In this document: positions 1,053 to 43,356 of the stretch, in pieces
How the letters are laid out: each line of letters begins with the position of its first letter
Numbering within the stretch: position 1 is the first letter of the stretch
NCBI GenBank assembly: GCA_025774805.1
Contig: JALGZR010000011.1
Span: 1-47,207, forward strand
Direction of reading: 5' to 3'
Source: a bacterium
Lineage (GTDB): Bacteria > ARS69
Length of the DNA stretch: 47,207 nucleotides
The notes under the pieces: model-generated
The model's input: only the letters and a program-made list of their open reading frames with translations
Database searches by the model: none
Told to the model about the DNA's origin: nothing
Program-made: the position numbers and the translations under genes

Positions 1053-1105
1053 CTAGCCTGCATTTCTCACCGGGCGCGTTGCGAGGCCGGTGAGAAAGGC
1101 AGGCC
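1053..1105. repeat. Dispersed palindromic repeat, copy 1
   Basis: Left arm 1053-1073 (CTAGCCTGCATTTCTCACCG plus G) and right arm 1087-1105 (CCGGTGAGAAAGGCAGGCC) are inverted repeats with one or two mismatches around a 13-base loop. It lies between RNase HI and the rnpB promoter. Five other copies share the arm sequence. As RNA it would fold into a long hairpin and could end the RNase HI transcript, but there is no U-tract. Confidence 0.85.
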
Positions 1106-1246
1106 AACCTCTTCGCCTTCTCCCGTCCCCGGGTCGGTTCGTCCTCTCTCGGCCGTCGTCCCGCGGCATCCCGCGCCGCGCTTGCGCCGATCCCCTCCCC
1201 GGTCGATCTTCCCGGGAGGGGCGCCGACCGAGGGCCCGACAACCCC

Positions 1247-1275
1247 TGGCAGTGCCCCGGCAAAACTGGTACTGA
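1247..1275 (+). promoter_or_regulatory. Probable sigma-70 promoter of rnpB
   Basis: TGGCAG (1247-1252) and TACTGA (1270-1275) are separated by 17 bases, with a TGG just before the -10 box (extended -10-like). The -35 is weak. Transcription would start near 1282, three bases before the first base of the RNase P P1 helix, and this agreement is the main support. Confidence 0.5.
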
Positions 1276-1284
1276 TTGGAATCT

Positions 1285-1643
1285 GGGGAGGTCCAGATGG
1301 TCGCGTCCCCTTCGGGGACGAGGAAAGTCCGAGCTCCACCGGGCAGGGTGCTGGCTAACGGCCAGTCGCGGTAACGCGAAGGAAAGTGCCACAGAAAACA
1401 GACCGCCCGGGGGTCCGCCCCCGAGCAAGGGTGAAACGGTGAGGTAAGAGCTCACCAGCGCCTCCGGTGACGGGGGCGGCTCGGCAAACCCCACCCGGAG
1501 CAAGGCCGAATAGGAGAAGAGAGGCGGCCCGTCTCGCTACGATTCTCGGGTAGGCCGCTCGAGACCCGGAGCAATCCGGGTCCTAGAGAAATGACCATCG
1601 CGGGTCCACGGACCCGAACAGAACTCGGCTTACGGGCCTCCCC
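1285..1643 (+). ncRNA. rnpB: RNase P RNA, bacterial type A
   Basis: Catalytic RNA that matures tRNA 5' ends. The P1 helix is GGGGAGGTCC (1285-1294) paired with GGGCCTCCCC (1634-1643). The conserved blocks occur in order: GAGGAAAGTCCGAGCTCC near 1320 (CR-I), AGTGCCACAGAAA near 1385, GGTGAAACGGTGAGGTAAGAG near 1430 (partly variable), and the 3' core AGAACTCGGCTTA near 1619. The length of about 359 nt is normal for type A. No long open frame in this interval is credible. The end is set by P1; a short T-run follows, then the recJ ribosome-binding site within 15 bases, so read-through into recJ is possible. Confidence 0.95.
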
Positions 1644-1672
1644 TTTCCCTACCCCGCGGGGAGGACCCGGCC

Positions 1673-3379
1673 GTGCTCCGGAAGAACTGGATCACCCCGA
1701 AACCGGTCGACGAGGCGTTGCTCACGCGCCTCGAGTCCGAGCTCGACGTGCCGCGCGTCGTCGCCCGCATCCTCGCCGCCCGAGGGAAGACCGATCCCGC
1801 GGCGGCGCGTCGCTTTCTCTTCCCCGACCTCTCCCAGCTCTCCTCCCCCTTCGCGTTGCTCGGGGGAGAAGCGGCGATCGACCGCATCCTCCACTCCCTC
1901 CGTCACCGGAAGAAGATCCTCGTCTTCGGGGACTTCGACGTCGACGGCGTGACCGGAACCGCTCTCGCCCTGCGGACCCTGCGCGAGCTCGGCGCCGACG
2001 TCGACTACCTGATGCCGAAGCGTCTCGTCCACGGCTACGGTCTCTCCCGCAAGGTGCTCCCCGATCTGATCGCGCGGAAACCGGATCTTCTCGTCACCGT
2101 CGACTGCGGCATTCGATCGATCGACGAGGTGGCGGAGCTGGCCGCCGCGAGCATCGACGCGGTGATCACCGATCACCACGAGCCGGCCGACGAGCTTCCT
2201 CCCGCGGTGGCGGTGGTCGATCCGAAGCGACCCGGCGACGAGTATCCCGACAAGCGGCTGGCGGGGGTCGGAGTGATGTTCCAGCTTCTGCGGGGGCTCT
2301 CCGACCAGCTCGAGCACGAGCTCGACCTCAACACCGATCTCGATCTCGTGGCCCTCGGAACGGTGGCCGACGTCGTGCCACTCGACGGAGAGAATCGCGT
2401 CCTCGTTCACGAGGGGCTCGACGTGCTGAACCGGAGGGAGAAGATCGGCGTCATGGCCCTCGCGCTCGAGGCGGGGATCGAGCGGCGGCTCGAGTCGTGG
2501 CATCTCGCCTACCTGCTCGGGCCGCGGATCAACGCCGCCGGCCGCCTCGGGGACGCGGCCGACGCGGTGCGGCTTCTCATCTCCTCGGACACGGCCGAGG
2601 CGAGCTCTCTCGCCAAGCGTCTCGACAAGGAGAACCGCCGCCGCCAGACGATCAGCGCCGAGACCCTCCAACAGGCCCTCGACGCCATCGAGCGGGGCAC
2701 CGCCGGCGAGAATCCCGCCGGAATCGTTCTCGCGTCCAACGTCTGGCATCCCGGAGTGATCGGCATCGCGACCGCGAAGCTCGTGGAGCGATACCACCGC
2801 CCATCGGTCCTCATCGCCATGGACGGCGACACGGGTCGCGGATCCGTCCGGTCGATTCGGGGGATCGACGTCTGCGAGGTTCTGGCGGAGTGCGAGGATC
2901 TGCTCACGCAGTACGGAGGGCACGAGATGGCGGCGGGGCTGTCCCTGGCGCGGTCCGACGTCCCCGCGTTCCGGGAGCGCTTCGCCGCGGGCGTCGGGCG
3001 CCGTCTCGACGAGCGGACCGCGCACCCGGAGCTCAAGATGGACGCCGAGATCGGCGCGGAGGAGATCGACGAGGGGCTCGTCGGAGACCTCGACCGCCTC
3101 GGTCCGTTCGGCTACGGAAACTCGCGGCCCGTCTTCCTGCTCCGGAACGTCCGCTGCGAGGGGCGCCCTAGGATCGTCGGACGGGGGCACCTCAAGATGG
3201 CGCTCCAGCGCGACGGCCAACCCTCCCTCGCCTGCATCGGCTTCGATCTCGGGGACCACGTCCGCCGCGGCTTCCCCCAGGGCCCGCTCGACGTCGTCGG
3301 CCACGTGTCCATCAACGAATGGAACAACCGCCGAAACCCCCAACTCCAGATCCTCGATCTCCGGGAGGCCGCCGCGTGA
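1673..3379 (+). CDS. recJ: Single-stranded-DNA-specific exonuclease RecJ
   Basis: A 5'-3' exonuclease for single-stranded DNA acting in recombination and mismatch or base-excision repair. The 568 residues match the short RecJ form. Motifs: GDFDVDG (86-92), DCG (144-146), DHH (167-169), GPRINAAGRL (283-292) and GGHEMAAG (415-422), which are the metal-binding DHH and DHHA1 signatures. The last ~110 residues resemble the C-terminal OB fold. The GTG at 1673 is chosen because GGGGAGG at 1658-1664 sits eight bases upstream. The gene starts only 30 bases after rnpB and overlaps the next start codon by 3-4 bases, so it is probably translationally coupled to rel. Confidence 0.95.
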   Translation: MLRKNWITPKPVDEALLTRLESELDVPRVVARILAARGKTDPAAARRFLFPDLSQLSSPFALLGGEAAIDRILHSLRHRKKILVFGDFDVDGVTGTALALRTLRELGADVDYLMPKRLVHGYGLSRKVLPDLIARKPDLLVTVDCGIRSIDEVAELAAASIDAVITDHHEPADELPPAVAVVDPKRPGDEYPDKRLAGVGVMFQLLRGLSDQLEHELDLNTDLDLVALGTVADVVPLDGENRVLVHEGLDVLNRREKIGVMALALEAGIERRLESWHLAYLLGPRINAAGRLGDAADAVRLLISSDTAEASSLAKRLDKENRRRQTISAETLQQALDAIERGTAGENPAGIVLASNVWHPGVIGIATAKLVERYHRPSVLIAMDGDTGRGSVRSIRGIDVCEVLAECEDLLTQYGGHEMAAGLSLARSDVPAFRERFAAGVGRRLDERTAHPELKMDAEIGAEEIDEGLVGDLDRLGPFGYGNSRPVFLLRNVRCEGRPRIVGRGHLKMALQRDGQPSLACIGFDLGDHVRRGFPQGPLDVVGHVSINEWNNRRNPQLQILDLREAAA

Positions 3380-5580
3380 ACGAACGTCCTTCGCCGCCGG
3401 CCGCGCGGGCTCCGCTCCCGCTCGAGGGGGTCCTGGGGCTGAACGACCTGTTCGCGTGCCTCCACGAGCCCGAGGCCCACGACCTCGAGCTCATCGAGCG
3501 GGCGTACGAGTACGCCCGCCGGCGGCACTCCGGGCAGATGCGGCGATCGGGAACCCCGTACATCCATCATTGCCTCGCGGTGACGTGCATTCTGGCGGAG
3601 CTCCGACTCGACACGACCACGCTCGTCGCCGGATTGCTGCACGACGTGATCGAGGACACCGAAGCCTCACCGGACGATCTGCGCCGGGAGTTCGGCGATC
3701 ACGTCGAGTTGATCGTCGACGGGGTCACCAAAATCGGGGGGTTCGAGTTCCGGAGTCCGGAGGAGCACCACGCCGAGAACTGGCGGAAGATGCTGCTCGC
3801 GATCGCCAAGGACTTGCGTGTCATTCTGATCAAGCTCGCGGATCGCCTGCACAACATGCGGACGATCCAGTACCTCCGGCGGGACAAGCAGGATCGAATC
3901 GCCCGCGAGACGCTCGAGATCTACGCCCCCCTCGCGCATCGGTTCGGGATCGCGACGATCCGGTGGGAGCTCGAAGATCTCGCCCTCAAGGTCCTGCAGC
4001 CCGCCGTCTATCAGGAGCTCGTCGAAAAGGTCGGACAGAGACGGGAGGAGAGAGAGGAGTTCCTGAGGCGGCTGACCGGCCCGTTGAGCAAGGAGCTCGC
4101 GAAGCTGAACATCGAGGCGGACGTGGCGGCGCGGGCGAAACACTTCTACAGCATCTACAACAAGATGGTCTCCCAGGAACTGGCATTCGAGGATCTCCAC
4201 GATCTGCTCGCCGTGCGCGTGATCGTCCCGCAGATTCGGGACTGCTACGAGTCCCTCGGCACCATCCACTCTCTCTGGAGGCCGGTGCCCGAGCGCATCA
4301 AGGACTACATCGCCTCTCCGAAAACGAATCACTATCGCTCGCTGCACACCACCGTCATCGGGCCCGATCACCGTTGGGTCGAGTTCCAGATCCGTACCCA
4401 TGAAATGCACGCCGAGGCCGAGTTCGGGATCGCGGCCCACTGGGCCTACAAAGAGGGAAAGACGCAGCTTCCCGACCTGATCACGAGCTTCCCCTGGCTG
4501 GGGGAGCTCGTGAAGGAGCAGGCCGACCAGAACTCCGAGGAGTTCCTCGATCTCCTGAAGTCCGATCTCTTCCAGCACGAGGTCTTCGTCTTCACGCCGC
4601 GGGGAGATCTCAAGGTTCTCCCGAAGGGCGCGACCCCGATCGACTTCGCGTACCAGATCCACACCGAGGTGGGCAACCGGTGTGTCGGAGCCCGGGTGAA
4701 CGGACGCATCGTGCCGCTCCGCCGCCACCTCGAGAACGGGGACACGATCGAGATCATCACCTCTCCCATGGGACGGCCCAGCCAGGATTGGCTGAGCCTG
4801 GTGGCGACCGCCGGAGCGCGGGGCAAGATCCGACGGTACTTCCGGCTCGAGCACGCGCAGCATTCCATCGCCTTGGGCAAAGAGATGCTCGAGCGCGAGG
4901 CCAAGCGGCTGCGCATCGATCTGGGAAAGGCAATGGGGCCGGATGCGGCGAAGCGATTCGGATTCGACTCGGTCGAGAAGCTGTACGCGACGATCGGTCA
5001 GGGGGACTTCTCCGCACTGCACGTGCTCCGCCGGCTCTTCCCGGGCGTCGAGGAGAAGAGGGAGCCGAAGGGAATCCGGCGAATCCTCACCTTCACGCGG
5101 CGCCGAGAGGGGGGGGTGCGGGTGCAGGGTTTGAGCAACGTGATGATCCGCTTCGCGGAGTGCTGCCAGCCGGTGCCGGGGGAGACCATCGTCGGGATCG
5201 TCACGCGAGGTCGCGGAATCTCGGTCCACCGGAACGATTGCCCAAACACGTTCGCGCCGATCGTCGAGGCGGAGCGGCGGATCGCGGTCGATTGGGACGT
5301 CACCCGTGACGACGCCTTCCGCGTCCACCTCGCGGTGGAGGGAGAGAATCGCCGCGGACTGCTCGCGGACATCTCCTCGGCGATCACCGGTCTCGACACG
5401 AACATCCTCTCGGCCACGGTGCACGCCGAAGACCACCGGGCCATCGGGAGGTTCATCGTGGAGGTCGAAGACTTGGCCCACCTGCGCAAGATCATCAAGG
5501 TCGTGCAGAAGGTGAAGGGCGTGGTCCAAGTGTTCCGCCAGGATCATAATCCTGAGCGCAGGTCCTCCGACCGGCCCTAG
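3376..5580 (+). CDS. rel: Bifunctional (p)ppGpp synthetase/hydrolase, Rel/SpoT family
   Basis: Makes and degrades the alarmone (p)ppGpp in the stringent response; cytoplasmic, ribosome-associated. 734 residues with the full long-RSH layout. The hydrolase HD domain has HH at 64-65, HDVIEDT at 89-95 and ADRLHNMRT at 155-163. The synthetase domain has RAKHFYSIYNKM near 253-264 and YIASPKTNHYRSLHT at 311-325. TGS spans about 402-463, followed by a helical region and a C-terminal ACT domain (about 650-725). The intact HD box and the basic RxKH (RxKD-type) loop argue for a bifunctional enzyme, not a synthetase-only RelA. The GTG at 3376 overlaps the recJ stop and has GGGAGG seven bases upstream; a longer in-frame start inside recJ is less likely. 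The TAG stop lies in the left arm of repeat copy 2. Confidence 0.95.
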   Translation: MNERPSPPAARAPLPLEGVLGLNDLFACLHEPEAHDLELIERAYEYARRRHSGQMRRSGTPYIHHCLAVTCILAELRLDTTTLVAGLLHDVIEDTEASPDDLRREFGDHVELIVDGVTKIGGFEFRSPEEHHAENWRKMLLAIAKDLRVILIKLADRLHNMRTIQYLRRDKQDRIARETLEIYAPLAHRFGIATIRWELEDLALKVLQPAVYQELVEKVGQRREEREEFLRRLTGPLSKELAKLNIEADVAARAKHFYSIYNKMVSQELAFEDLHDLLAVRVIVPQIRDCYESLGTIHSLWRPVPERIKDYIASPKTNHYRSLHTTVIGPDHRWVEFQIRTHEMHAEAEFGIAAHWAYKEGKTQLPDLITSFPWLGELVKEQADQNSEEFLDLLKSDLFQHEVFVFTPRGDLKVLPKGATPIDFAYQIHTEVGNRCVGARVNGRIVPLRRHLENGDTIEIITSPMGRPSQDWLSLVATAGARGKIRRYFRLEHAQHSIALGKEMLEREAKRLRIDLGKAMGPDAAKRFGFDSVEKLYATIGQGDFSALHVLRRLFPGVEEKREPKGIRRILTFTRRREGGVRVQGLSNVMIRFAECCQPVPGETIVGIVTRGRGISVHRNDCPNTFAPIVEAERRIAVDWDVTRDDAFRVHLAVEGENRRGLLADISSAITGLDTNILSATVHAEDHRAIGRFIVEVEDLAHLRKIIKVVQKVKGVVQVFRQDHNPERRSSDRP

Positions 5581-5631
5581 CCTGCATACCTCACCCGGCT
5601 CGCGACGAGCCTGTTGAGATGTGCGGGCCGG
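5577..5631. repeat. Dispersed palindromic repeat, copy 2
   Basis: Left arm 5577-5602 begins CTAGCCTGCATACCTCACCC; right arm 5606-5631 is its imperfect inverse, with a 3-base loop. The CTAG at the arm start supplies the TAG stop of rel, so the repeat begins inside the coding region's last codon. It separates rel from pgeF. Confidence 0.85.
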
Positions 5632-5676
5632 TCCCACAACCGGCGACCCGTCCGCCCCGAAAGCGGGAGCGTTTCG

Positions 5677-6441
5677 ATGAGTCCGCTGCTGGGAAAAGCC
5701 GCGCGGCTGGTGACGAGGGGAGATCGTCTCTGGTACCGGGCTCCGCTGCTCTCCCTGCATCCCGAGATCGTCCACGGCGTGACCCACGCGGGCCTCGGGA
5801 ACTTCTCGCTCTCGACGGGCGACGATTCCGAGGCGGTCGAGTCCCGGCGGCGAGGACTGCTCGCGGCGGCCGGTCTCGGCGGGGCGCGCGTCGTCGCGCC
5901 GCCGCTCCACCATTCCTCGAACGTGGCCGTCGTCGACGGGGGGCGTCTCCCTGAAGGGGAATTCGATGCCTTCGTGACCCGCGACGCACGGACCGTGATC
6001 GCGGTCACGGTGGCCGACTGCGCGCCGGTCTTTTTCGTCGACCCGCGAGAGAAGGCGTTCGGAGTGGCCCATGCCGGCTGGCGGGGTCTGGCCGGAGGGA
6101 TCATCCGCGCCGCGGTGCGCGCTCTGGTGGATGAGCTGGAGGTACGGGTGGGCGATCTGCTGGTGGGGGTCGGGCCGGCGATCCGCGGACCGCGCTACGA
6201 GGTCGGGCCCGAGGTTTGGGGGCTGTTCCCCGAGCCGTTCGCCGTCCCGACCGGAGATCCCCGGCAGGGGCAGGCTCAGCTCGACCTGCCGTCGTGCGCT
6301 CTCGCCGACGCGGCGGCGGAGGGCGTTTCCCGAGACAATCTCGTCGATTTCGCTCTCTGCACCGCCGATCATCCCGACGACTTCTTCTCCCACCGGCGAG
6401 GTGACTCCTGTCGTCACTGGGCGTTCATCGGGCGTCCGTGA
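5677..6441 (+). CDS. pgeF: Purine nucleoside phosphorylase-like / PgeF (YfiH, CNF1-laccase fold) protein
   Basis: 254 residues. The family was once called polyphenol oxidase/laccase-domain; members act on purine nucleosides and, in E. coli, correct a wrong residue in peptidoglycan stems. Family marks: HSSNVAVVDGG, VTVADCAPVFFVD, HAGWRGLAGG and GPAIRGPRYEVG, supplying the conserved zinc-binding His/Cys/His set. The usual ending SCRHWAFIG is present. The ATG at 5677 has GGGAG about seven bases upstream; the in-frame TTG at 5614 lies inside repeat copy 2 and is rejected. The stop is 12 bases before dtd. Confidence 0.88.
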   Translation: MSPLLGKAARLVTRGDRLWYRAPLLSLHPEIVHGVTHAGLGNFSLSTGDDSEAVESRRRGLLAAAGLGGARVVAPPLHHSSNVAVVDGGRLPEGEFDAFVTRDARTVIAVTVADCAPVFFVDPREKAFGVAHAGWRGLAGGIIRAAVRALVDELEVRVGDLLVGVGPAIRGPRYEVGPEVWGLFPEPFAVPTGDPRQGQAQLDLPSCALADAAAEGVSRDNLVDFALCTADHPDDFFSHRRGDSCRHWAFIGRP

Positions 6442-6454
6442 TACATTGCAGCCA
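6442..6454 (+). promoter_or_regulatory. Candidate leaderless promoter of dtd
   Basis: TACATT (6442-6447) lies six bases before the dtd ATG, where transcription would start on the ATG itself. No Shine-Dalgarno sequence precedes the start. The layout TANANT-GCNNNC-ATG is the same as at 19149-19163. No convincing -35 box is seen. Confidence 0.35.
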
Positions 6455-6924
6455 TGCGCGCCTTGATTCAAAGGGTCTCCCGCGCCCGCGTCGACGTCGA
6501 AGGGGAGACGGTCGGCTCGATCGGCCCCGGCCTCCTCGCGCTGATCGGGGTCAAGCGGGGCGACACTCGAGACGACTGCGAGTGGGTCGCGGGGAAGATC
6601 GCCACGCTTCGGATCTTCAACGACGGCGCCGGCAAGATGAATCTCTCCCTGGAGGAGGTGGGAGGTGCCGTCCTCCTCGTTTCGCAGTTCACCCTCTACG
6701 GAGACGCGCGGAAAGGACGGCGCCCTTCGTTCACGGCGTCGGCTCCTCCCGAAGAGGCCGTGCCCCTCCTCGATGTCCTGCGCGAAGAGGTCGAGGCCCA
6801 CGGGATTCCGGCGGAGACGGGGCGCTTCGGCGCTCACATGATCGTCGAGCTCACGAACGACGGTCCGGTCACGCTGATGATCGACTCCGATGTGCGGCGC
6901 GGCACGGAGCGGAAGGATCGATAG
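6454..6924 (+). CDS. dtd: D-aminoacyl-tRNA deacylase
   Basis: Hydrolyses D-amino acids mis-attached to tRNA (and Gly-tRNA-Ala), keeping D-residues out of proteins; cytoplasmic homodimer. 156 residues, near the usual ~145-150. It begins [13 protein letters not shown], the standard DTD N-terminus, and carries the active-site motif SQFTLYGD (residues 77-84) and the Gly-Pro motif TNDGPVT near the C-terminus that gives chiral selectivity. There is no ribosome-binding site, and a -10-like box sits directly before the ATG. It is followed by maf after 24 bases. Confidence 0.95.
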
Positions 6925-6948
6925 AAACGCGAAGGGAAAGGGAAAGAC

Positions 6949-7644
6949 ATGGTTCCTGTCAGGACTGAGCGCTTTCGCCTGCTCGCCCCGGACTCACCGC
7001 TGGGGAACGTGTCACTCGTCCTCGCCTCGGAGTCGCCCCGGCGCCGGGCTCTGCTCCAGAGCCTGGGACTCCAGTTCACCGTTCAACCCGCCGAGGTCGA
7101 CGAGCGCAAGGACCTTCCGGAGGATCCGGAGGGCCGGGCGCGGACCCTCGCGATCCGCAAGGCCCGCGTCATCGCGGAGCGGCTCCGAGAATGCATCGTC
7201 CTCGCGGCGGATACGATCGTCGTCCGCTCGGGCAGGATCTACGGGAAACCGGGAGACCGCGAGGAGGCGATCGTGATGTTGAGCGATCTCACGGGAGGGG
7301 AGCACCAGGTGATCACCGCGGTCTGTGCCGCGCACGGAGCGCGCGAACGGTACGAGACCCGGATCGTGTCGACGGCCGTGCGCATGAATGAAGTCGGAGC
7401 GGAGGAGATTCGCCGCTACGTCGATACCGGAGAGCCCTTCGGCAAGGCGGGCGCGTATGCGATTCAGGGGCTCGGCGGTCTGCTGGTGACCCGCATCGAG
7501 GGGGATTACTCGAACGTCGTGGGTCTGCCGCTCAGCGCTACGCTGGATCTTCTCGAGGAGATGATTCCCCGGGAGGCGTCCGCAGGCGGGGAGTCGCGGC
7601 CGGCCGCGACCTCCGCGGCCACGGAAGGGGAGACGAAACCGTGA
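6949..7644 (+). CDS. maf: Maf-type nucleoside triphosphate pyrophosphatase
   Basis: House-cleaning pyrophosphatase that hydrolyses dTTP/UTP or modified nucleotides to monophosphates. 231 residues; the Maf fold runs from about residue 21 to 205. Signatures: LASESPRRRALL, AADTIVV, the lysine-bearing GEPFGKAGAYAIQG and EGDYSNVVGLPL. An extra N-terminal tail of ~20 residues (MVPVRTERFRLLAPDSPLGN) and a low-complexity Ala/Glu C-tail are unusual. A purine-rich GGAAAGGGAAAG precedes the ATG; an internal GTG near residue 21 could be an alternative start. The stop overlaps the yjbQ start (GTGA). Confidence 0.92.
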   Translation: MVPVRTERFRLLAPDSPLGNVSLVLASESPRRRALLQSLGLQFTVQPAEVDERKDLPEDPEGRARTLAIRKARVIAERLRECIVLAADTIVVRSGRIYGKPGDREEAIVMLSDLTGGEHQVITAVCAAHGARERYETRIVSTAVRMNEVGAEEIRRYVDTGEPFGKAGAYAIQGLGGLLVTRIEGDYSNVVGLPLSATLDLLEEMIPREASAGGESRPAATSAATEGETKP

Positions 7645-8060
7645 GCGTCCATCACGACGAGCTCCGACTCTCCACGGCCGGCGACGGGACGATGCACGAT
7701 CTGACCGAAGATGTCTCCAATTGCCTCGCCCGGTGCGGCGTGAGCGAAGGAACCGTCACGGTTTTCGTCCCGGGGTCGACGGCCGGCATCACGACCATCG
7801 AGTACGAGCCGGGGCTGATCCGCGACTTCCCCGCGGCGATGGACCGCTTCGCTCCGCGGGACCTGACGTACCACCACGACGAGACCTGGCACGACGGAAA
7901 CGGGCACTCCCACGTGCGGGCGAGTGCGCTCGGACCCTCGCTCACCGTTCCGGCCGCCGCCGGTCGCCTCGTGCTCGGAACTTGGCAGCAGATCGTTCTC
8001 GTCGACTTCGACAACCGTCCGCGGGATCGGCGGGTGGTCGTGACGGTCATCGGGGAATAG
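7641..8060 (+). CDS. yjbQ: YjbQ / UPF0047 family protein
   Basis: 139 residues, the whole family length. The conserved core is present: VFVPGSTAGITTIEYEPG, a histidine-rich loop (YHHDETWHDGNGHSHVRAS) and LGTWQQIVLVDFDNRPRDR. Some members have weak thiamin-phosphate-synthase-like activity in vivo, but the physiological role is open. The GTG start overlaps the maf stop in GTGA, so translation is likely coupled. The identity is secure; the function is not. Confidence 0.9.
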   Translation: MSVHHDELRLSTAGDGTMHDLTEDVSNCLARCGVSEGTVTVFVPGSTAGITTIEYEPGLIRDFPAAMDRFAPRDLTYHHDETWHDGNGHSHVRASALGPSLTVPAAAGRLVLGTWQQIVLVDFDNRPRDRRVVVTVIGE

Positions 8061-8073
8061 AGGCTCCTTCGAC

Positions 8074-8952
8074 GTGCCTTCCGGGACCGGGCCGGCGGAT
8101 CGGGCCTTCCCGAGCGCGAGAGCGGCGATCGTCTACCTGCTGATTGCGGTCGCGGTGGGTGCCCCCCTGTACGTGGCGGGCGCGCTCGGTCTGCGCGCCC
8201 TCGGCCTCGTCCCCGACGGCGGCCCGGTCGTGCTGCCGTTCTTCCAGATCGCTCTGCTCCTCGTCACCGTGTGGCACCTCCGAGACCGTCGGTTCCCGTG
8301 GCGGGACGCGTTCCCCGTCCGTCGGCCCTCCCTCGCCGAGCTCGGTCACGGTCTCGCGACGGGATTCGCGGGGGTCCTCGTGGTGATCTTCGGGCTCGGC
8401 GGTCTCGCGAACCTCGTGCCGCCCGATTTCCCCTGGGGTCGGGGGCCGCCCGATCTGCCCTCGGCGGGTTTCCCCTACCTCGTTCTGATCCTGACCGGAG
8501 TCGGGGTCGCTCCCGTCGCCGAAGAGGTCTTCTTCCGGGGGCTCGTCCTCCGCGGGCTGGTCGCCCGACATGCCTCGGGCCGTGCGCTCCTGATTTCCGC
8601 GGTGATCTTCGGGCTCGCCCACATCGAGTCGCTCCACCGCGGACTCGCCGCAGCGGGCCTGGGCATGCTGCTCGGCTGGTGGTTCCTGCGGACCCGGAAT
8701 CTCGTCGTGCCAGTGATCCTCCACGCCGGGATCAACGCGTTCGTCACGATCGTTCTCGGGCGCGTGGTTTCCGAGGAGGCGTGGGCGGGCGGAGAGCTGG
8801 GTTCCGAAGGTGCCCTGCCCGCGCCGGTGGCCCTGCTCGGACTCGCGGGCGGCGTCGCGATGCTGGCCGCGACCCTCCGGCTGGCCACGAGAGCGCTTCC
8901 GGAGCCGCCGCCCTGGCCGGAGCCGCCGGGGACGGTGGGGGAGGGGGAGTAG
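8074..8952 (+). CDS. CPBP-family intramembrane metalloprotease
   Basis: 292 residues with about eight hydrophobic segments. The CPBP (CAAX protease and bacteriocin-processing, Abi) motifs are intact: EEVFFRGLVLRG (motif 1, EExxxR) near residues 150-161, FGLAHIES (motif 2, FxxxH) near 180 and HAGINAFV (motif 3, HxxxN) near 218. Members are membrane glutamate/metal proteases related to Rce1; substrates in this genome cannot be told. The GTG at 8074 lies 13 bases after yjbQ with a weak AGAGG, so it is probably the last gene of the dtd-maf-yjbQ unit. The N-terminal ~10 residues are uncertain. Confidence 0.85.
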   Translation: MPSGTGPADRAFPSARAAIVYLLIAVAVGAPLYVAGALGLRALGLVPDGGPVVLPFFQIALLLVTVWHLRDRRFPWRDAFPVRRPSLAELGHGLATGFAGVLVVIFGLGGLANLVPPDFPWGRGPPDLPSAGFPYLVLILTGVGVAPVAEEVFFRGLVLRGLVARHASGRALLISAVIFGLAHIESLHRGLAAAGLGMLLGWWFLRTRNLVVPVILHAGINAFVTIVLGRVVSEEAWAGGELGSEGALPAPVALLGLAGGVAMLAATLRLATRALPEPPPWPEPPGTVGEGE

Positions 8953-8989
8953 TCCCCCAGGTCTCTCCCTTGCCTCGGCCGGCAGGCAA
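8943..8989 (+). terminator. Candidate terminator hairpins after the CPBP gene
   Basis: Two inverted repeats in tandem: GGGGGA-GTAG-TCCCCC (8943-8958), whose loop holds the stop codon, and TTGCCT-N8-AGGCAA (8970-8989). There is no U-tract, so intrinsic termination is only a guess. The rest of the gap to 9113 shows nothing recognisable. Confidence 0.3.
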
Positions 8990-9113
8990 TGGAACAGTGG
9001 AGGGGCTCCGCGGTCCGTTTCCATGCCCCGGACCGGATGGTGCCTCGGGAATCGACGCGGGCTGCCTTGCCTCTGAGATCACGCATGGATTGATCGAGAA
9101 GGAGGAGTCCACC

Positions 9114-10292
9114 TTGACTGCCACACCCCGACATTCCCTGCTCCTGGTCCTCGTCTTCTCGCTGGGCGCGACCCCGGCCGCCGCGGGGGCGGAGGAGAAA
9201 AAAGAGGCGGTGTTCCCCTCGGGCTGGCCGTGGCGAGGGGTGGGGGTCAAGTATCCCGGTTTCGAAGAACTGGACCGGCTGGAGGAGCTTCACAGGACCG
9301 AGGGAATCCGGCACTTCTGTCTGGTGCCGAAACACCGTGCCTTGGCCCGGAAGAAGGGAATCACCCTGCAGGAGGCCTGGACCGAGAGCCTGGATTGGAT
9401 GGTGGCCGCCCTGGCCCGATGCAAGAGACTGGGCATTACCGCGTCCGTCCTGATGGACGGGTTCCCGGTGTACGAGAACTGGAGCTCCGCGAGACAAACC
9501 TCCGAATTCTGGGACACGCCCGCTTGCCAGGACGAGGCTCTCGAACGGATCGTGGAGCTTGTCGAGCGCCTGCCCACGGGGCCGGAGCTGGGCCACATCC
9601 AGTTCTTCTCGGAGCCCGTATACCGAAAGGAGGATCCTTCGGGCAAACGAAGGGTCCGGGTGTCCACGCCGGAGGTGTGGCCGGCCTTCTTCGAACGAAT
9701 TCGAAAGACGGTTAGGGAGCACGGAGATTTCTGGCTGGGATACAGTCCGGGTCCGGGTGGCCTGCGCCGAGGCTACAAGAAACAGGCGGTCTTCGATGAT
9801 CCGCGCATTGTCTACAACGCCCACATGTACAGCCCCGGCATCTACACGCACCAGGGTCTCGAGGGAAAAGAACACCCGATCGAGTATCCCGGGCGCCTCG
9901 AGAAGGGTCGGAGATTCTGGAACAAGAAAGCGCTGCGGGAGTCCTTACAGCCGCTGCGGGACTTCCAACTGAAATGCATCGAGTCCGGGCGACCGGTGCC
10001 GGTCATCATCAACAGTTTCAGCGCCATCCGGTGGGCGCCCGGCGGCGAGCAGTACCTGCTGGACCTGGCGGACATCTTCCAAGAGTACGGCTGGTCCTAT
10101 TCCTACTGGTGCCTGGGGGGGGCGCATGTATGGGACCCCGACTACGGCAATGTATTCGATGAGAAGACCCCGTGGCAGCGACAGTTCGTCGGCAAGACGT
10201 CGGTTCGGTGGAACACCCTGCGAACGATCCTGGCCCCGCGGGGAGAAGAGGAGAGGGAGAGCGGGGAGGGATCCGACCGACGAGATCCGTGA
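9114..10292 (+). CDS. Secreted glycoside hydrolase family 5-like protein, probable pseudo-enzyme
   Basis: 392 residues from a TTG start with an excellent AAGGAGGA seven bases upstream. The open frame continues upstream but overlaps the CPBP gene and lacks sense there. Residues 1-26 form a signal peptide (LLLVLVFSLGATPAAA). The body is a TIM-barrel cellulase-like protein: FFSEP carries the acid/base Glu (residue 167), YNAHMYSPGIYTHQG is the family's HxY region, and SFSAIRWAPGGEQYLLDL matches the strand-7 segment. In active relatives that segment reads GEFSAIRWAPG; here the Glu nucleophile is Ser301 (INSFSAIRWAPG). It may be inactive, a carbohydrate binder, or use another residue. Codon choice differs somewhat from the neighbours (more CTG and AAG), hinting at separate acquisition. 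Confidence 0.75.
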   Translation: MTATPRHSLLLVLVFSLGATPAAAGAEEKKEAVFPSGWPWRGVGVKYPGFEELDRLEELHRTEGIRHFCLVPKHRALARKKGITLQEAWTESLDWMVAALARCKRLGITASVLMDGFPVYENWSSARQTSEFWDTPACQDEALERIVELVERLPTGPELGHIQFFSEPVYRKEDPSGKRRVRVSTPEVWPAFFERIRKTVREHGDFWLGYSPGPGGLRRGYKKQAVFDDPRIVYNAHMYSPGIYTHQGLEGKEHPIEYPGRLEKGRRFWNKKALRESLQPLRDFQLKCIESGRPVPVIINSFSAIRWAPGGEQYLLDLADIFQEYGWSYSYWCLGGAHVWDPDYGNVFDEKTPWQRQFVGKTSVRWNTLRTILAPRGEEERESGEGSDRRDP

Positions 10293-10384
10293 TCGACGAA
10301 CCCCGGATTCCCCCGTCCGGTTCCCTCTCTCGCCGGGGGTGCGACGCCCGTCCCCCGGGGGCCTCCGACTTCCCCGGCCTGAGC

Positions 10385-11434
10385 TCAGTGGGCCGTGCCC
10401 TGCCAAGGGAGAGCGGTCGCCTCGTCCGCGTGCCGCTTGATCTGGGCGAGGGCCTGAATGTACTTGTCCTTCGGTTCCAGCCTCACCGCCCGCTCTACCG
10501 ACCTCGCCGCCGCATCGTACCGCCCGAGCGCGTCGTAGACGACACCGAGATTGTAGTGAGCCGAGGCGAGCGAAGGAGCGGCGACGGCAACCGAGCTGAG
10601 CGTCAACGCCGCTTCGTCCCAGAGCCCCGCCTGCGCGTACTTGATCGCCAAATCCGTCTCGACCAGATCGTTCTCCTCGAAGCGGACGGCGCGGACGACG
10701 TACTGGGGTTGGATCTGTCGGAGAAAGCGGCCGGTCACGCGAGAGGAGAGGTCGTCGAGGATCACGTCCTTCGTCGGCAGATGATGGGTCTCGTCCTCCC
10801 AGGCCTTCTCCGAAAAGTGGACGGTCTCCGTCTTGATGGCGACGATCTCGCCGGTGTTCACGTTCGCCATCCGGAACGTCACCCCCATCGTGCCCTCGCG
10901 AATCACGTGACCGCGATCGATGAGGACGGTCCGCATGATCTCCGTCTTGACCTCGTGGACCCTCCCGCTGCGGTCTTTCTCCTTCACCGTCTCGTACTCG
11001 CCGGTGCCGATCTTCGTCTCGAACTTGGAGATCCCCGTCTGGTCGTCGACGCTGAAGACGTCGACCGTCCCGAAGATGAGCGCGTCGACCCCGAGTAGCT
11101 TGAGCCGGTTGGCGGTCTCCGGATTCACGTGCTCCGAGTTTCCGAACTCACGCTCGTAGAGGATCTCCTCCAGCTTCTCGCGCTCGAACATGCGGAAGTG
11201 ACCGTTCTCTACGATTCCCTGGGTCAGCTTCGCCGTCACGAAGCGGCCGGTTTGGTCCAGGCCGTCGAAGTCGGCGACGGCCACCCGCTCGATGTCACCG
11301 ACGTCGATCTCGGCGGGTACGCGGGTCTGGAATCGGGCGACGGGGGAGCCGCATCCGGCCAAGAGAAGAACGGCGAGAAGGATCAACGTGCCGACCTTGC
11401 AGAGGTTCGCAGTCACGGAATTCGTCCTTTGCAT
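10385..11434 (-). CDS. CsgG-like lipoprotein with C-terminal TPR repeats
   Basis: 349 residues. The N-terminus LLAVLLLAGCGS is a lipoprotein signal with the lipidated Cys at about residue 28, so the protein is anchored to a membrane. Residues 45-130 (VAVADFDG, RFVTAKLTQGIVENGHFRMF, KLLGVDALIFGTV) follow the CsgG/TolB-N-like pattern seen in curli-secretion-type lipoproteins. Residues ~255-330 are tetratricopeptide-like (ASAHYNLGVVYDALGRYDAA). The ATG at 11434 has GAGGAT upstream. It is convergent with the GH5-like gene and divergent from mtnA. No curli subunit is nearby, so a secretion role is not supported. The family call is moderate. Confidence 0.7.
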   Translation of the reverse strand: MQRTNSVTANLCKVGTLILLAVLLLAGCGSPVARFQTRVPAEIDVGDIERVAVADFDGLDQTGRFVTAKLTQGIVENGHFRMFEREKLEEILYEREFGNSEHVNPETANRLKLLGVDALIFGTVDVFSVDDQTGISKFETKIGTGEYETVKEKDRSGRVHEVKTEIMRTVLIDRGHVIREGTMGVTFRMANVNTGEIVAIKTETVHFSEKAWEDETHHLPTKDVILDDLSSRVTGRFLRQIQPQYVVRAVRFEENDLVETDLAIKYAQAGLWDEAALTLSSVAVAAPSLASAHYNLGVVYDALGRYDAAARSVERAVRLEPKDKYIQALAQIKRHADEATALPWQGTAH

Positions 11435-11748
11435 GGGATCATCCTCGAGGCGCCTTCCGGACGGGCGCCTTTCTCACCATGGAGGGCAACGCACCCGGCC
11501 GGGCCGGGCGCACTTTCCCTGGAGATCGGAATCCACCGGGCCCCACTCAAGCGCGCAGGATGCCGGCGGAGTCGCCCCCGCTCCGAGTTTCCGGCAGGAG
11601 CCGACCGCCCGGGCCGATCGGGGAACACCTCCCCGGACGCCTCGCGGCTTCTCCGCCTTCCCGATCCCCGCTAGGATGGAGCCCCGGCCCGCCGGGACGT
11701 TCGGTGGGCACCCCGCCATCGGGCTCCGGAAACCGTGCAGGAGGGAGC
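11435..11748. other. Divergent intergenic region between the CsgG-like gene and mtnA
   Basis: 314 bases with no credible gene. It holds a 7-bp hairpin, AGGCGCC (11448-11454) with GGCGCCT (11464-11470), in the leader of the - strand gene. GCTAGGAT near 11670 might be a -10 box for mtnA, but no -35 box is visible. Nothing else stands out. Confidence 0.4.
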
Positions 11749-12789
11749 ATGGATTTCTTCACCGTGAAGTGGGACGACGGCGTGGTCGTCCTTCTCGATC
11801 AGACGAGACTTCCCGCCGAGGAGGTCTATCTGTCCTGCGAGAGCGTCGATGACGTCGTCGCCGCGATCCGCCGGCTCTCCGTTCGCGGTGCCCCCGCGAT
11901 CGGCGTGGCGGGAGCCTACGGTGCCGCGCTCGCCGCCCACCTCTCCGAGACGACCGATCCCGCCGCGTTTCGCGCGGAGATCGAGCCGGAGCTGACGAAG
12001 CTGCGCGAGGCGAGGCCGACCGCGGTCAACCTGGCGTGGGCCGTCGATCACGTCCGGCGCGTCCTCGATTCGGTGGCCGACCGGCCGGTGCCTACCCAGC
12101 GGGAAGCCGTGCTCGCGGAGGCCCGGCGCATTCACGAGGAGGACGCCGAGGCGTGTCGCGCCCTGGGTCGCCACGGGGCGGAGCTGCTCCCGGACGCCGG
12201 GACGGTGCTCACCCACTGCAACGCCGGCGCTCTGGCGACCGGGGGCCGGGGAACGGCGCTCGCGGTGATCTACGCCGCCGTCGAGGCGGGGAAGCGGATC
12301 CACGTCTTCGCCGACGAGACCCGGCCGCTCCTGCAGGGCGCGCGCCTGACCGCCTGGGAGTGCGGCCGGATGGGCGTCCCGGTCACCGTTCTGTGCGACA
12401 ACGCCGCGGGCTCGCTGCTCGCTCGCGGAGAGGTCGACTGCATCGTCGTGGGGTCCGATCGCATCGCGGCCAACGGCGACGTCGCGAACAAGATCGGCAC
12501 CTACCCGCTCGCCGTCCTTGCCCGTGAGCACGGCGTTCCGTTCTACGTGGCCGCGCCGACCTCCACCATCGATCTCGCGACCCTCACCGGCGCCGGCATC
12601 CCCATCGAGGAGCGGGCGGCGGACGAGGTGACCACGCCGCGCGGACTGCGCATCACCCCCGAGGGAGTCCCCGCCCTCAACCCTGCCTTCGACGTCACAC
12701 CGAACGCCCTCGTCGCGGCAATCGTCACGGAGAGGGGGGTCGCGCGCGCGCCCTACGAGGAGAGCCTGCGACGCCTGCTGGAAGATTAG
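11749..12789 (+). CDS. mtnA: S-methyl-5-thioribose-1-phosphate isomerase
   Basis: Converts methylthioribose-1-P to methylthioribulose-1-P in the methionine salvage pathway; cytoplasmic, eIF2B-like fold. 346 residues. Motifs: VRGAPAIGVAGAYGAA, THCNAGALATGGRGTA with the catalytic Cys, ADETRPLLQGARLTAWE, and GSDRIAANGDVANKIGTYP with the catalytic Asp. The ATG at 11749 is chosen because AGGAGG lies at 11739-11744 and the MDFFTVKW start fits the family; the longer in-frame extension is rejected. No other methionine-salvage genes are nearby. The TAG stop falls inside the left arm of repeat copy 3. Confidence 0.93.
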   Translation: MDFFTVKWDDGVVVLLDQTRLPAEEVYLSCESVDDVVAAIRRLSVRGAPAIGVAGAYGAALAAHLSETTDPAAFRAEIEPELTKLREARPTAVNLAWAVDHVRRVLDSVADRPVPTQREAVLAEARRIHEEDAEACRALGRHGAELLPDAGTVLTHCNAGALATGGRGTALAVIYAAVEAGKRIHVFADETRPLLQGARLTAWECGRMGVPVTVLCDNAAGSLLARGEVDCIVVGSDRIAANGDVANKIGTYPLAVLAREHGVPFYVAAPTSTIDLATLTGAGIPIEERAADEVTTPRGLRITPEGVPALNPAFDVTPNALVAAIVTERGVARAPYEESLRRLLED

Positions 12790-12850
12790 CTCACACCTCT
12801 CACCCGGTCTGCCGTCGCCGCAGCGGAGGCTCGTGAGAAGTGAAGGCTAG
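12786..12850. repeat. Dispersed palindromic repeat, copy 3, between convergent genes
   Basis: Left arm from 12786 (TTAGCTCACACCTCTCACCC) and right arm 12831-12850 (ending GTGAGAAGTGAAGGCTAG) are inverted copies around a ~25-base loop. TTAG gives the mtnA stop and the terminal CTAG gives the stop of the convergent sulfatase gene, so both genes end inside the repeat. It is well placed to act as a bidirectional terminator. Confidence 0.85.
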
Positions 12851-14301
12851 TCCACATATCCCAGGGCCCGCATCTCCTCGAGGGTCTGCTCGTCGGGAAG
12901 AGCGGTGACCGTGTCCCCGTCCGCGGCGGGCAAGAAGAACTCACCTCGCCTTCGTTGGTCCTCCATGAGGGTCTCGAGCTCTTTCGACAGCCGCTGGACC
13001 AGCTCAGGATGAGCTTCGTGCCGGTCCTCCAGCTCGAACGGGTCCGCCGCGAGATCGAACAGTCGAACCCGCCCCTCGTCATCCGTGATCACCTTCCATC
13101 GACCCGAGATCAGCGTCCGCCGTCCCGGATCGAGCGGGGACATCCCGAAGACCGGAGTCTCTACGAAGCTCGGATCCAGGACGTCCTGGCCGCGCGCCTG
13201 TCGCCAGAATTCCTCGGGCTCGAGCTGAGGTAGAAACCGCAGGGCCGTGGGAACGATGTCGATGATCGAGAGCGTCCGATCGACTCGGCGCGGCGTCTCT
13301 CCCGGTGCCCGAAGGAGCAGCGCGAGGCGCAGCTGCTCGTCCCATACGTCCCCGTGAGTCGCGGCGTCGTGTTGGCCCAGCCCCTGCCCGTGATCCGAAG
13401 CCACGACGAGAACGGTCCTGTTCCAGTCGTTCCGGGCCTCCAACGTGTCGAGAAGCCGGCCGAACGAGTCGTCGAACATCCGTACGGCTCCGTCATAGAG
13501 GTTTACCAAGTCCCGCGGCTTGAGCCTTCGGCCTTGATGCGGCTCCACGGTCCCGGGGAACCGCCGCGTCTCCAGGTACCGCTGGAGAGCCTCGTCGTCC
13601 CCGTACATCTTGTTGTACGGAGGAGGAGGGTGTTCGGGCCCGTACGGGCCGTGCGGATCGAAGTAGTGAATCCACAGAAGGAACGGGGATTTGGCCTCGT
13701 CGAGCCAGGCCAGCACTTCCCGTGTGGTCTCCGGCGCCGACCGGCGGACTCCCTTGTTCTGGTTCCATTCCTGGAACCCGGCCGAGAGTCCGGTAATGCG
13801 CTTCACGGGGGTCGCGCTCACAAATCCGCTGGTCCGATACCCGAGCTCGGAGAGATGACTTGCTATGGTCGACAATCGGTCGCTGCCGCGAAAGGCCATC
13901 GCACGCATTTCCTTGACGGTACTTCGATTGACGAAGTTGTCCGCGATGCCGTGCTCCAGGGGATAGACGGACGTCATCAGAGAGAGGTGGCTCGGGGTCG
14001 TCCGGGACACGGGTGCGAAGCAGGCGTCGAAGACGATGCTCTGCCGGGCGAGGCGATCGAGGTTCGGCGAGGTGTCGCGGAAGTAGCCGTAGCATCCGAG
14101 ATGATCGGCCCGTAACGTGTCGACCGTGACCAGCACGAGATTGCGCGGGCCGGAATCGGACGAACTGAAGGGCGAACAGGATAGACCTGCCGCCAGTGCA
14201 ATCGAAGCGAGCGCCTTTGCGATGGATCCGGGGAATCGGCCCATGCCGGCCAGGGGCCGGACCCGCGTCGGGCCGGGATCGGTCGCCTTATCGGGGCACA
14301 T
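12847..14301 (-). CDS. Sulfatase-fold (alkaline phosphatase superfamily) lipoprotein
   Basis: 484 residues. LAAGLSCSPF near residues 37-45 looks like a lipobox (Cys42), so it is likely exported and lipidated. Met20 (14244) is an alternative start; neither start has a well-placed ribosome-binding site. Metal-site motifs: VTVDTLRADHLGCYGY (59-74), TTPSHLSLMTS (101-111) and ASDHGQGLGQHD. The C-terminus ALGYVD is typical of the group. The position of the formylglycine Cys/Ser in the CxPSR signature is Thr101, so it may not be a classical sulfatase; phosphatase or phosphotransferase activity is possible. It starts three bases after the PHP gene stop, so the two are one operon. Confidence 0.85.
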   Translation of the reverse strand: MCPDKATDPGPTRVRPLAGMGRFPGSIAKALASIALAAGLSCSPFSSSDSGPRNLVLVTVDTLRADHLGCYGYFRDTSPNLDRLARQSIVFDACFAPVSRTTPSHLSLMTSVYPLEHGIADNFVNRSTVKEMRAMAFRGSDRLSTIASHLSELGYRTSGFVSATPVKRITGLSAGFQEWNQNKGVRRSAPETTREVLAWLDEAKSPFLLWIHYFDPHGPYGPEHPPPPYNKMYGDDEALQRYLETRRFPGTVEPHQGRRLKPRDLVNLYDGAVRMFDDSFGRLLDTLEARNDWNRTVLVVASDHGQGLGQHDAATHGDVWDEQLRLALLLRAPGETPRRVDRTLSIIDIVPTALRFLPQLEPEEFWRQARGQDVLDPSFVETPVFGMSPLDPGRRTLISGRWKVITDDEGRVRLFDLAADPFELEDRHEAHPELVQRLSKELETLMEDQRRRGEFFLPAADGDTVTALPDEQTLEEMRALGYVD

Positions 14302-14304
14302 TCC

Positions 14305-16248: not shown

Positions 16249-16379
16249 GTTTGCCTCCGCGTACCGGAACGGCCGATCCCCTGGACTCCAGGGTGTCACC
16301 AGATTACCACGGCTCGGGTTCCGACCGAGATCGGACCTCCGCTCCCGGACGAGACCCGTCGTTCTCGAGATCATCCCTC

Positions 16380-17861: not shown

Positions 17862-17880
17862 CCGCGTTCTCTTGTTCCCC

Positions 17881-19040: not shown

Positions 19041-19148
19041 GTCCGGGGGCGAGGTGGTTGCGGGGAATCCTACCGATCCCGTTGGGCGGCGTCCACCGAC
19101 GGCGGCGGACGTGCGTGAAGATGGTGCGAACAAGCGGTGGGAAGCGAG

Positions 19149-19161
19149 TATACTGCGATCA
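19149..19161 (+). promoter_or_regulatory. Candidate leaderless promoter of the PHP-LamG gene
   Basis: TATACT (19149-19154, 5 of 6 consensus bases) lies six bases before the ATG at 19161, so the transcript would begin at the start codon. No Shine-Dalgarno sequence and no clear -35 box are present. The spacing is identical to that in front of dtd. Confidence 0.45.
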
Positions 19162-21256: not shown

Positions 21257-21306
21257 CCAGCCTGCATGTCTCACCCGCCTCTGCAGCGGCACCGGAAAAG
21301 CCGCAC
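21257..21306. repeat. Dispersed palindromic repeat, copy 4 (degenerate)
   Basis: The left arm CCAGCCTGCATGTCTCACCC (21257-21276) matches the family well. The right arm is eroded; CCGGAAAAGCCGCAC at 21292-21306 may be its remains. It lies between the PHP-LamG gene and the rplM promoter. About 50-100 bases upstream an imperfect long stem (GGTGAGCGG at 21154 with CCGCTCGCC at 21219) could end the PHP transcript. Confidence 0.6.
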
Positions 21307-35402: not shown

Positions 35403-35431
35403 CGACAATCCCACCCGGCGGCACGGGACCT

Positions 35432-35503
35432 CGCCCGCACGTCTCATCGGCCTCGGCGGCCGGCCGCCGCCTCGCGACGAGCCGGTGAGAGGTGCAGACT
35501 GGT
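35432..35503. repeat. Dispersed palindromic repeat, copy 5, in the feo leader
   Basis: Left arm 35432-35455 (CGCCCGCACGTCTCATCGGC) and right arm 35477-35503 (CCGGTGAGAGGTGCAGACTG) are imperfect inverses with a ~22-base loop. It sits 30 bases upstream of the DtxR-FeoA start, between that gene and the palindromic operator, so it would be part of the 5' leader if the transcript starts near the operator. Confidence 0.8.
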
Positions 35504-35508
35504 TGAAC

Positions 35509-36274: not shown

Positions 36275-36555
36275 GGGGATCGACCGAAAGCGAGCCCCCC
36301 GGACACTCCTGATCCATGCCCCCCTCCCATGCCCCGCATCCCTCGCCGGGCCGGTCGCGAGGCCGCGAAGGGTCGTGTCGGGCAAGGAGATGGGGTGATT
36401 TCGCCCCGGGGCGGGAGTGTCCCCGCGACGAAGCCGGGCGCGCCTTGCCGTGGCTGCGGCAAGGGCCGACGAGATCGTCGGCCTGGGCAGTCAAGCGCGC
36501 GCATCGGAATGACGAGATGACGAGAGGAGAGATCGGAGACGATCCAGGGGGACGC
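36275..36555. other. Non-coding region with consecutive strong hairpins
   Basis: 281 bases without a convincing gene. Four inverted repeats follow each other: GGGGTG-N4-CGCCCC (36392-36407), a GC stem around 36408-36427, CCTTGCCG-N6-CGGCAAGG (36443-36464) and GGCCGACG-AGAT-CGTCGGCC (36464-36483). This is denser structure than a terminator needs and lies upstream of the two small membrane-associated genes. No known riboswitch class was recognised. Confidence 0.4.
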
Positions 36556-37355: not shown

Positions 37356-37420
37356 AGGCGGGGAGGCGGTCGCTCGCGGGCGGCACGGGGCCCGAGCCGG
37401 CCGAGGTCCGGGGAGGTCGT

Positions 37421-38731: not shown

Positions 38732-38741
38732 GCTTATCACC

Positions 38742-41711: not shown

Positions 41712-41725
41712 CGTCTGCCTCCTGT

Positions 41726-42127: not shown

Positions 42128-42639
42128 GGAAGAACCTCCGTGTTTCCCGTCATGGTGTTGATACGTATGGTCTTCGAGCGTCCCCGCCCATCCACGATCT
42201 GGACATCACCGGTCTGCGACGTCGTGCCGTTGGGGCGGAACGTCATCCGGTTCCCCCCCCAGTTCACGTTCAGCAGGGAGACGCCGACGTCCATCAGGTA
42301 GGGACCGAGCGTCTTTTCTCCGGCGTCCTGCACTCCGTCGGCGTCGCGGTCTTCGAAGATGGTGAACCGGTCATTCGTGGGAGCGAGGGTGACCACGTAG
42401 GGCACCTTCTCCCGGACCGCCAGCTGCCGGGTCAGGAACATCTTGCTCGTCATCTCGTTCACGTCCGCATTGAAGCGATAGCCCTCCACGGTGGATCGCA
42501 GGCTGGGAATCGAAGCGGCGAGCACCATTCCGAGGACCGTGACGGTGATCAGCAGCTCCAGGAGGGTCATGCCGTTCTGGGACGTCACGAGACACGACTG
42601 GCGGTCGCTCGTGGAATGGATTCGCATCGCCTCTCTCAC
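42124..42639 (-). CDS. FimT/GspH-type minor pilin
   Basis: 171 residues, first gene of the pilin operon. QNGMTLLELLITVTVLGMVL is a prepilin signal in which Met follows the cleaved Gly and Glu5 is kept. The head fits GspH/FimT (ADVNEMTSKMFLTRQLAVRE, NRMTFRPNGTTSQTGDVQI). The GTG at 42639 has AAGGAG eight bases upstream; the ATG four codons later is an alternative. A sigma-54-type promoter lies ~75 bases upstream. Confidence 0.87.
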   Translation of the reverse strand: MREAMRIHSTSDRQSCLVTSQNGMTLLELLITVTVLGMVLAASIPSLRSTVEGYRFNADVNEMTSKMFLTRQLAVREKVPYVVTLAPTNDRFTIFEDRDADGVQDAGEKTLGPYLMDVGVSLLNVNWGGNRMTFRPNGTTSQTGDVQIVDGRGRSKTIRINTMTGNTEVLP

Positions 42640-42715
42640 GCCGACGTCTCCTTGCGATGATTTGCAGGTCGACAGGGTCTCGCGTACCGCAGTTCAGGCG
42701 GCCGCCCAAGCACTG

Positions 42716-42732
42716 ATGCCAGGGTCGTGCCA
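42716..42732 (-). promoter_or_regulatory. Sigma-54 promoter of the pilin operon
   Basis: On the - strand TGGCACGACCCTGGCAT matches the -24/-12 consensus TGGCACG-N4-TTGCA at all but one position, with GG and GC exactly 10 bases apart. Transcription would start near 42705, ~65 bases before the FimT start. No activator-binding site was identified. The rest of 42640-42907 has no gene. Confidence 0.75.
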
Positions 42733-42907
42733 GACCTGAGCGATCAGCTAACCACCGCCTTCAACAGCGTGAGCGGGTTTCCGCAATGATCGCCAAACGG
42801 CGTCGTGGAGTGCTTTCCCGCCCGTAACAATGAGCTTGAAGCAGAGGTAATGGTCTCGGGGACGCCGGAGGGGAATGCGCGGGGAGAAGGGTGAGGAGAT
42901 CGAATCG

Positions 42908-43258
42908 CTACCGGGTGCTCCCGAGCTCGGTCAGCGCGGCCGCGATCCGCTCTCCGAGCACCCGGGGTTGATCGAGATAGGGCTTCGTCCAGGCCTCCCA
43001 CTCCTCGTCACTCAGATGCGTTCCCGGAAGAAGGTCGAGCGCCGCCCGGAAGGAATCGGGCTGTGCGGTGTGGAGGCGGGAGAGGCGGATGACCTCTCCG
43101 TAGTAGTCGAGGAAGTCCCCGCACCTCTCCTCGATCGCGAGGGTCTCCGGGGACTTCTCCGGCGCCGAAGAGTCCCCCCCGAGCCGACAGGACGGGGCCA
43201 GCAGCGCGACGCCCGCCAGGGCGAACCGGGCCCAGGTCGAAATCGTCCGCGCGCGCAT
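42908..43258 (-). CDS. Small lipoprotein of unknown function
   Basis: 116 residues. ALAGVALLAPSCRLGGDS is a lipoprotein signal with the lipidated Cys at residue 24. The mature part is short, acidic and helical (LAIEERCGDFLDYYGEVIRL, SDEEWEAWTKPYLDQP). GGGGAGGG precedes the ATG. It is divergent from the TamA-like gene, with repeat copy 6 between them. No family was recognised. Confidence 0.65.
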   Translation of the reverse strand: MRARTISTWARFALAGVALLAPSCRLGGDSSAPEKSPETLAIEERCGDFLDYYGEVIRLSRLHTAQPDSFRAALDLLPGTHLSDEEWEAWTKPYLDQPRVLGERIAAALTELGSTR

Positions 43259-43277
43259 CGAAGCCCTCCCCGGCCGG

Positions 43278-43356
43278 GCGAGCCCGCATCTCTCACCGGG
43301 CTCTGCGGCGGCCGCGGCTCCCCGCGCGGCGAGCCCGGTGAGAGGTGCAGGCTAGC
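43278..43356. repeat. Dispersed palindromic repeat, copy 6 (best-preserved long arms)
   Basis: Left arm 43278-43303 (GCGAGCCCGCATCTCTCACC and GGGCTC) and right arm 43331-43356 (GAGCCCGGTGAGAGGTGCAG and GCTAGC) are 26-base inverses with three mismatches, loop 27 bases and itself GC-rich. It lies between the divergent lipoprotein gene and the TamA promoter. Confidence 0.88.

Follow-up and report, generated by a model that had tools for sequence, protein, structure and literature searches.

Six palindromic repeats, each with a shared arm on either side of a variable loop, lie between genes in the window (the whole stretch of 47,207 nucleotides analysed here, contig C56 of a 5.10-Mb genome of 284 contigs), raising the question of what these hairpins are and why they sit at the boundaries of transcription units. 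A sequence-only reading had placed all six, correctly to within 1–2 bases, and proposed REP- or MITE-like mobile hairpins, terminators, or RNA-processing or nucleoid-protein sites. All six are intergenic in our own gene calls, with both arms recognisable at five of them, and the left arm alone clear at 21257. We consider the six palindromes very probably to be decayed, internally deleted copies of an IS1380-type MITE, and so interpreted the copies of the window are as follows.

1053..1107, unstranded: 55-bp MITE copy with an internal deletion, lying between an RNase H-like gene and the RNase P RNA gene, with CTAG on its left and a degraded CCAA on its right
5577..5631, unstranded: 55-bp MITE copy, the left CTAG (5577-5580) being the TAG stop of a RelA/SpoT gene (3376-5580)
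12786..12850, unstranded: 65-bp MITE copy between convergent IF-2B-family and sulfatase genes, left TTAG and right CTAG being their stop codons
21257..21306, unstranded: truncated MITE copy that keeps a clear left end (21257-21274) but no recognisable right arm
35430..35502, unstranded: 73-bp MITE copy between divergent genes, with FeoA/iron-repressor domains on both sides
36347..36468, plus strand: interior of a decayed full-length copy, resembling the master at a weak model score (E 0.018), absent from the sequence-only reading
43279..43355, minus strand: 77-bp MITE copy that has kept both sub-terminal master segments and lost the middle, located upstream of an Omp85-family gene

The RNase P RNA just downstream of the first copy is of bacterial class A (1285-1647, plus strand; RF00010, 309.8 bits).

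Copy number and anatomy

Copies of the arm are far more frequent than expected by chance. At up to three mismatches GTGAGANNTGCAGGCTAG matches the window nine times compared with 0.24 expected, and the whole genome 264 + 291 times (555) compared with 22 + 24 (46) for the reversed control, with a limit of one mismatch leaving 132 + 124 matches (256) and none in the control. Among the 116 genomes of the one-mismatch search, arm matches occur in this genome and only three others, in a comparison made largely with MAGs, which are prone to repeat loss. The lineage of the window (G000) is isolated, with four other family members among the genomes searched and its next kin at the domain level.

Anatomy and gene context were counted in 1.21 Mb of stretches from the same genome, which hold 69 two-armed copies, a set from which the truncated copy at 21257..21306 was left out, and 89 lone or broken ends. 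The full-length master is ~182 bp long, with 36 of the 69 copies of a uniform 180–183 bp and present in both orientations, and the shorter copies, mostly 55–107 bp, retaining the arms together with one or both sub-terminal segments. As is typical of MITEs, the element is short, non-coding, and multi-copy, and an all-against-all comparison of the ORFs near the arms gave mainly translations of the element itself. The copies of the window belong to the shorter class and most have decayed, and internal deletion and decay of the ~182-bp unit would yield their palindromes of 50–80 bp. Elsewhere, a copy of 208 bp (C79:72986-73193, in the L186/L185 region) has within it a short tandem duplication that comes from the right half of the central hairpin region.

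Target site and insertion

The element ends in CC[T/C]GCATNTCTCACC and adjoins CTAG, with the tetranucleotide outside CCTGCA being CTAG at 181 of 255 ends and mostly YTAR-like at the remainder. Six pairs of abutting tandem elements have a single shared CTAG and no pair has two, which identifies CTAG as the target and not as part of the element. Furthermore, two empty sites align without gaps, one for a copy inside an IS1380 relic (L281 compared with L287, 86% over 122 bp) and the other for a copy nested in another copy (L075 compared with L043, 91% over 101 bp). The shared CTAGs and the empty sites, along with a CTAA/CTAA duplication found on an IS1380, conform to IS1380-like insertion into a 4-bp YTAR target with duplication, and together with the IS1380-type ends they bear out the earlier suggestion of MITE-like mobile hairpins. 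Less easily reconciled with an IS1380-type MITE are the few end pairs other than CTAG, four of which match as direct repeats compared with three as inverted, and the missing YTAR ends of some copies with divergent arms. CTAG itself is depleted in this genome, with 313 observed in 1.21 Mb compared with 970 expected under a Markov model from trinucleotides; these elements account, through their ends, for 130 of the 313, and 47 of the 184 other CTAGs are stop codons.

Relationship to the IS1380 family

The terminal inverted repeats are held in common with autonomous IS1380 elements. Two IS1380s of ~1731 bp in a Bryobacterales genome (L235/L239) have the same ends, a 492-residue IS1380-family frame, and target duplications of CTAA/CTAA and CTAG/CTAG, and plasmid IS1380s of Pseudomonas, Rhizobium, and Bradyrhizobium end in CTAG followed by CCCGCATTTCTCAC (CCCG.AT.T.TCA after the CTAG), with the CTAG duplicated. 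In five more hosts, ends of a similar kind lie next to an IS1380 gene or a fragment of one. The claim that no named repeat has this arm holds for Rfam and the literature searched, with queries by arm sequence, for IS1380 and MITEs, and for IS1380 and a CTAG target yielding no description of these elements, but the arm is in fact the terminal inverted repeat of a known family. An IS1380-family DDE transposase would recognise the ends CC[T/C]GCATNTCTCACC and insert the element into CTAG, or more generally YTAR, duplicating 4 bp.

This reading must accommodate a genome in which no intact IS1380 is assembled, the only trace being a 131-residue fragment of another subtype that lacks these ends, and several further hosts of the element without any IS1380, all of them MAGs, which lose repeats. 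An old population of MITEs need not have an autonomous partner in the same genome, and this MAG is incomplete; the mobiliser may have been lost or left unassembled in this host, with mobilisation presumably occurring in trans. The ends and their occurrence on complete IS1380s, the target, the duplication in empty-site comparisons, the nesting, stop-codon sites, covariation, and strand asymmetry are read from the sequence itself. Origins from IS630/Tc1 and from IS4/IS5 were also considered and rejected, with DDE_3 and DDE_Tnp_1 respectively absent from this genome; it was the DDE_Tnp_1 search that brought up the IS1380 copies.

A conserved interior hairpin

Full-length copies from Myxococcota, Acidobacteriota, Pseudomonadota, Candidatus Eiseniibacteriota, and the present genome align over 192 columns and have in common an interrupted hairpin, with CGT.GCGAG posed opposite CGCAGTAG near the ends and a GGCG-stem-CGTCGAG at the centre. 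Across 18 sequences 24 of 42 pairs are changed on both sides, giving 83 double-change cells compared with 30 on shuffling (0/500), and the paired changes previously said to keep the stem are therefore genuine. A covariance model, proposed earlier as a check, was built from the interior without the arms and recovers copies in several phyla. It makes 116 matches in this genome, no fewer than 135 in each of four further hosts, and 22 in Thioalkalivibrio denitrificans ALJD (G134); of 241 genomes taken from across the domain, 12 have a match at E ≤ 1e-6, under a stricter filter. The taxonomic breadth seen among named genomes is a lower bound. The interior is thus conserved more widely than the arms. 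In 43 aligned matches the double-change cells number 242 compared with 76 on shuffling, and the covariation score is 0.649 compared with 0.231 (slid controls ≤ 0.12), values taken from a model-made alignment that favours the model's own structure. No Rfam family matches the elements, either at the gathering score or at E ≤ 0.5. A group II intron match barely over the gathering score was seen at L114:179-251, in a Gammaproteobacterial host of the element.

The two strands of the element differ in their folding. Strand A, which carries CGTCGCGAG on its 5' side, out-folds its complement in all 27 representatives, by 3 to 33 kcal/mol, and the same strand folds better in 36 of 36 copies from this genome and 26 of 26 further copies, although the lineages are related and these counts cannot be taken as independent trials. 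Orientation was set by eye for four long Gammaproteobacterial representatives and by sequence motif or model for the others, with four second-family copies of G219 left out of the count, these having been misoriented by the motif rule, with the opposite sign as a result, and then re-oriented by homology to a sister copy. Consensus folding of strand A and its complement gives -62.2 and -40.9 kcal/mol respectively for the 18 sequences, and -34.9 and -12.2 kcal/mol for a larger set. In a double-stranded cruciform, G-T and A-C changes should be tolerated equally, and the strand bias therefore favours RNA or else single-stranded DNA from one of the two strands. In full-length copies the interior is maintained as a long interrupted hairpin of strand A, most likely as RNA. 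This one-strand hairpin, conserved across several phyla with different ends and lacking an Rfam match, is the new part of the element, and would serve its spread or tolerance and not host genes.

The fold also occurs with other ends. A second subfamily in this genome has the same interior fold and ends in CTAG followed by CCCGGACTATTCATGA (for example L208:7207-7353 and L336:1500-1683), an end shared with five unrelated genomes and found exactly in six of 241, some of which hold copies of ~183–186 bp that fold in the same way; ends of a similar kind also occur on IS1380s. In G013, which belongs to the family of the window, four copies (L413-L416) have arms that are complementary yet mutually unrelated, one with CTAG ends and the others without, and the copies found by the interior model in G113 have partly divergent arms. 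Among those scanned, no protein gene is constantly found beside the divergent-arm copies.

Our tentative proposal, possible but short of probable, is that the ~146-nt interior is a structured RNA, or a single-strand hairpin, not described before and broadly distributed in bacteria, that is needed for the spread of CTAG-targeting elements, keeps its fold through exchange of ends between IS1380 subgroups, and persists in some lineages as an RNA locus whose arms vary freely. It is rather unlikely, though deserving of consideration, that the interior is instead a structured non-coding RNA class itself, found at separate loci with freely varying stems in some genomes, and captured and amplified as a MITE where its outer stem matched IS1380 ends. 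The unrelated yet complementary arms within one genome (G013, and partly G113) would suit such an origin, but could also mark old lineages moved by other IS1380 subgroups. A single-copy case in G200, whose arms contain G-U, the covariation among the 43 matches, and the better folding of one strand in every case tested likewise agree with an RNA class, whereas most copies are dispersed, high in number, and bounded by IS1380-type ends. Additionally, an RNA class is disfavoured by the lack of a constant neighbour among the genes scanned, and by the decay of copies in this genome, which shows no clear G-U bias (27 G-U compared with 17 A-C).

Bacterial MITEs are usually regarded as dispensable remnants that a single insertion sequence has left in a single genus. 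In the present case the same non-coding fold is found with IS1380 ends in several phyla, outlasts their exchange, and covaries on a single strand, which suggests either that the interior of a MITE carries a function in its spread, or that a new RNA family became a transposon.

Location at gene boundaries

Gene context was derived from a purpose-written gene caller (a home-made model), according to which 68 of the 69 two-armed copies are intergenic, compared with a random placement that puts 83% in genes; copies commonly inside genes, one of the refuting outcomes named in the sequence-only reading, were thus not encountered. Counted by boundary type over the 1.21 Mb, 34 copies lie between tandem, 17 between convergent, and 13 between divergent genes. 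The end tetranucleotide falls exactly on the TAG stop codon of a neighbour in 24 of the 69, and in six copies, that at 12786-12850 of the window among them, both ends are the stops of convergent genes. Insertion at a CTAG containing a TAG stop would restore the stop through the 4-bp duplication and leave the gene unharmed, with a CTAG common to two convergent stops providing, as the anatomy suggests, one stop for each gene. Copies are found at transcription-unit boundaries because the CTAG target often lies in stop codons, and survive at gene ends since the duplication restores the stop. No regulatory role is needed to explain the boundary pattern; an element with a specific target site can spread into gene ends almost free of cost, and hairpins in such positions are easily mistaken for regulatory ones.

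That the palindromes are host regulatory sites, whether intrinsic terminators, 3'-end stabilisers, or nucleoid-protein sites, is accordingly improbable. Their location at gene ends, which would favour such a role, is accounted for by CTAG in stop codons, and the hairpins, whilst very stable, have no T-runs beside their stems in the flanks read, with no terminator-like site at the copies in positions 1-20000 of the window. Convergent boundaries are somewhat enriched (17 of 64 compared with 94 of 630), but the 89 lone or broken ends and the lack of the arm in nearly all other genomes searched are not what host sites would lead one to expect. Orientation relative to genes shows no clear bias (13 antisense, 6 sense), which leaves the nucleoid-protein suggestion unsupported and makes a role for the element likelier than one for the host. 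REP/REPIN elements moved by a RAYT (Y1) transposase, which would likewise present inverted arm pairs and variable loops in intergenic DNA, can be set aside almost entirely, as Y1_Tnp (PF01797) is absent both from this genome and from four other hosts, including two in which the copies number 137 or more, no Y1 locus is flanked by an arm pair, and the same ends are found on IS1380.

Comparison with known systems

The closest relatives of the IS1380-type MITE described here are members of the IS1380 family (ISPosp7, IS1380A, and unnamed plasmid members), which have in common with it the terminal repeat CC[T/C]G.AT.T.TCAC and a 4-bp CTAG/YTAR duplication; in contrast to these, the elements of the window lack a transposase gene, and in their interior they show no relationship to the sequenced IS1380 ends used for comparison. 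REP/REPIN elements with RAYT resemble the present element in their inverted arm pairs and variable loops between genes, but no Y1 transposase is present in this and other hosts, and both the ends and the target site belong to the type of a DDE element.

IS1380 serves as the prokaryotic outgroup of the piggyBac superfamily, in which TTAA is the customary duplication and some members have TTAG or CTAA (PMC10813416). The 4-bp TTAA-like duplication and the existence of piggyBac MITEs are points of similarity, whilst piggyBac is eukaryotic and prefers TTAA over CTAG. Among bacterial MITEs, ERIC/RU-1, Correia/NEMIS, and RUP are similar in being intergenic, 100–200 bp long, and bounded by terminal inverted repeats, with long stem-loop transcripts predicted (PMC2229807). 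The MITEs listed there are each restricted to particular genera and for the most part end in TA, whereas the present element combines one fold across several phyla with a tolerance of end exchange and a CTAG target.
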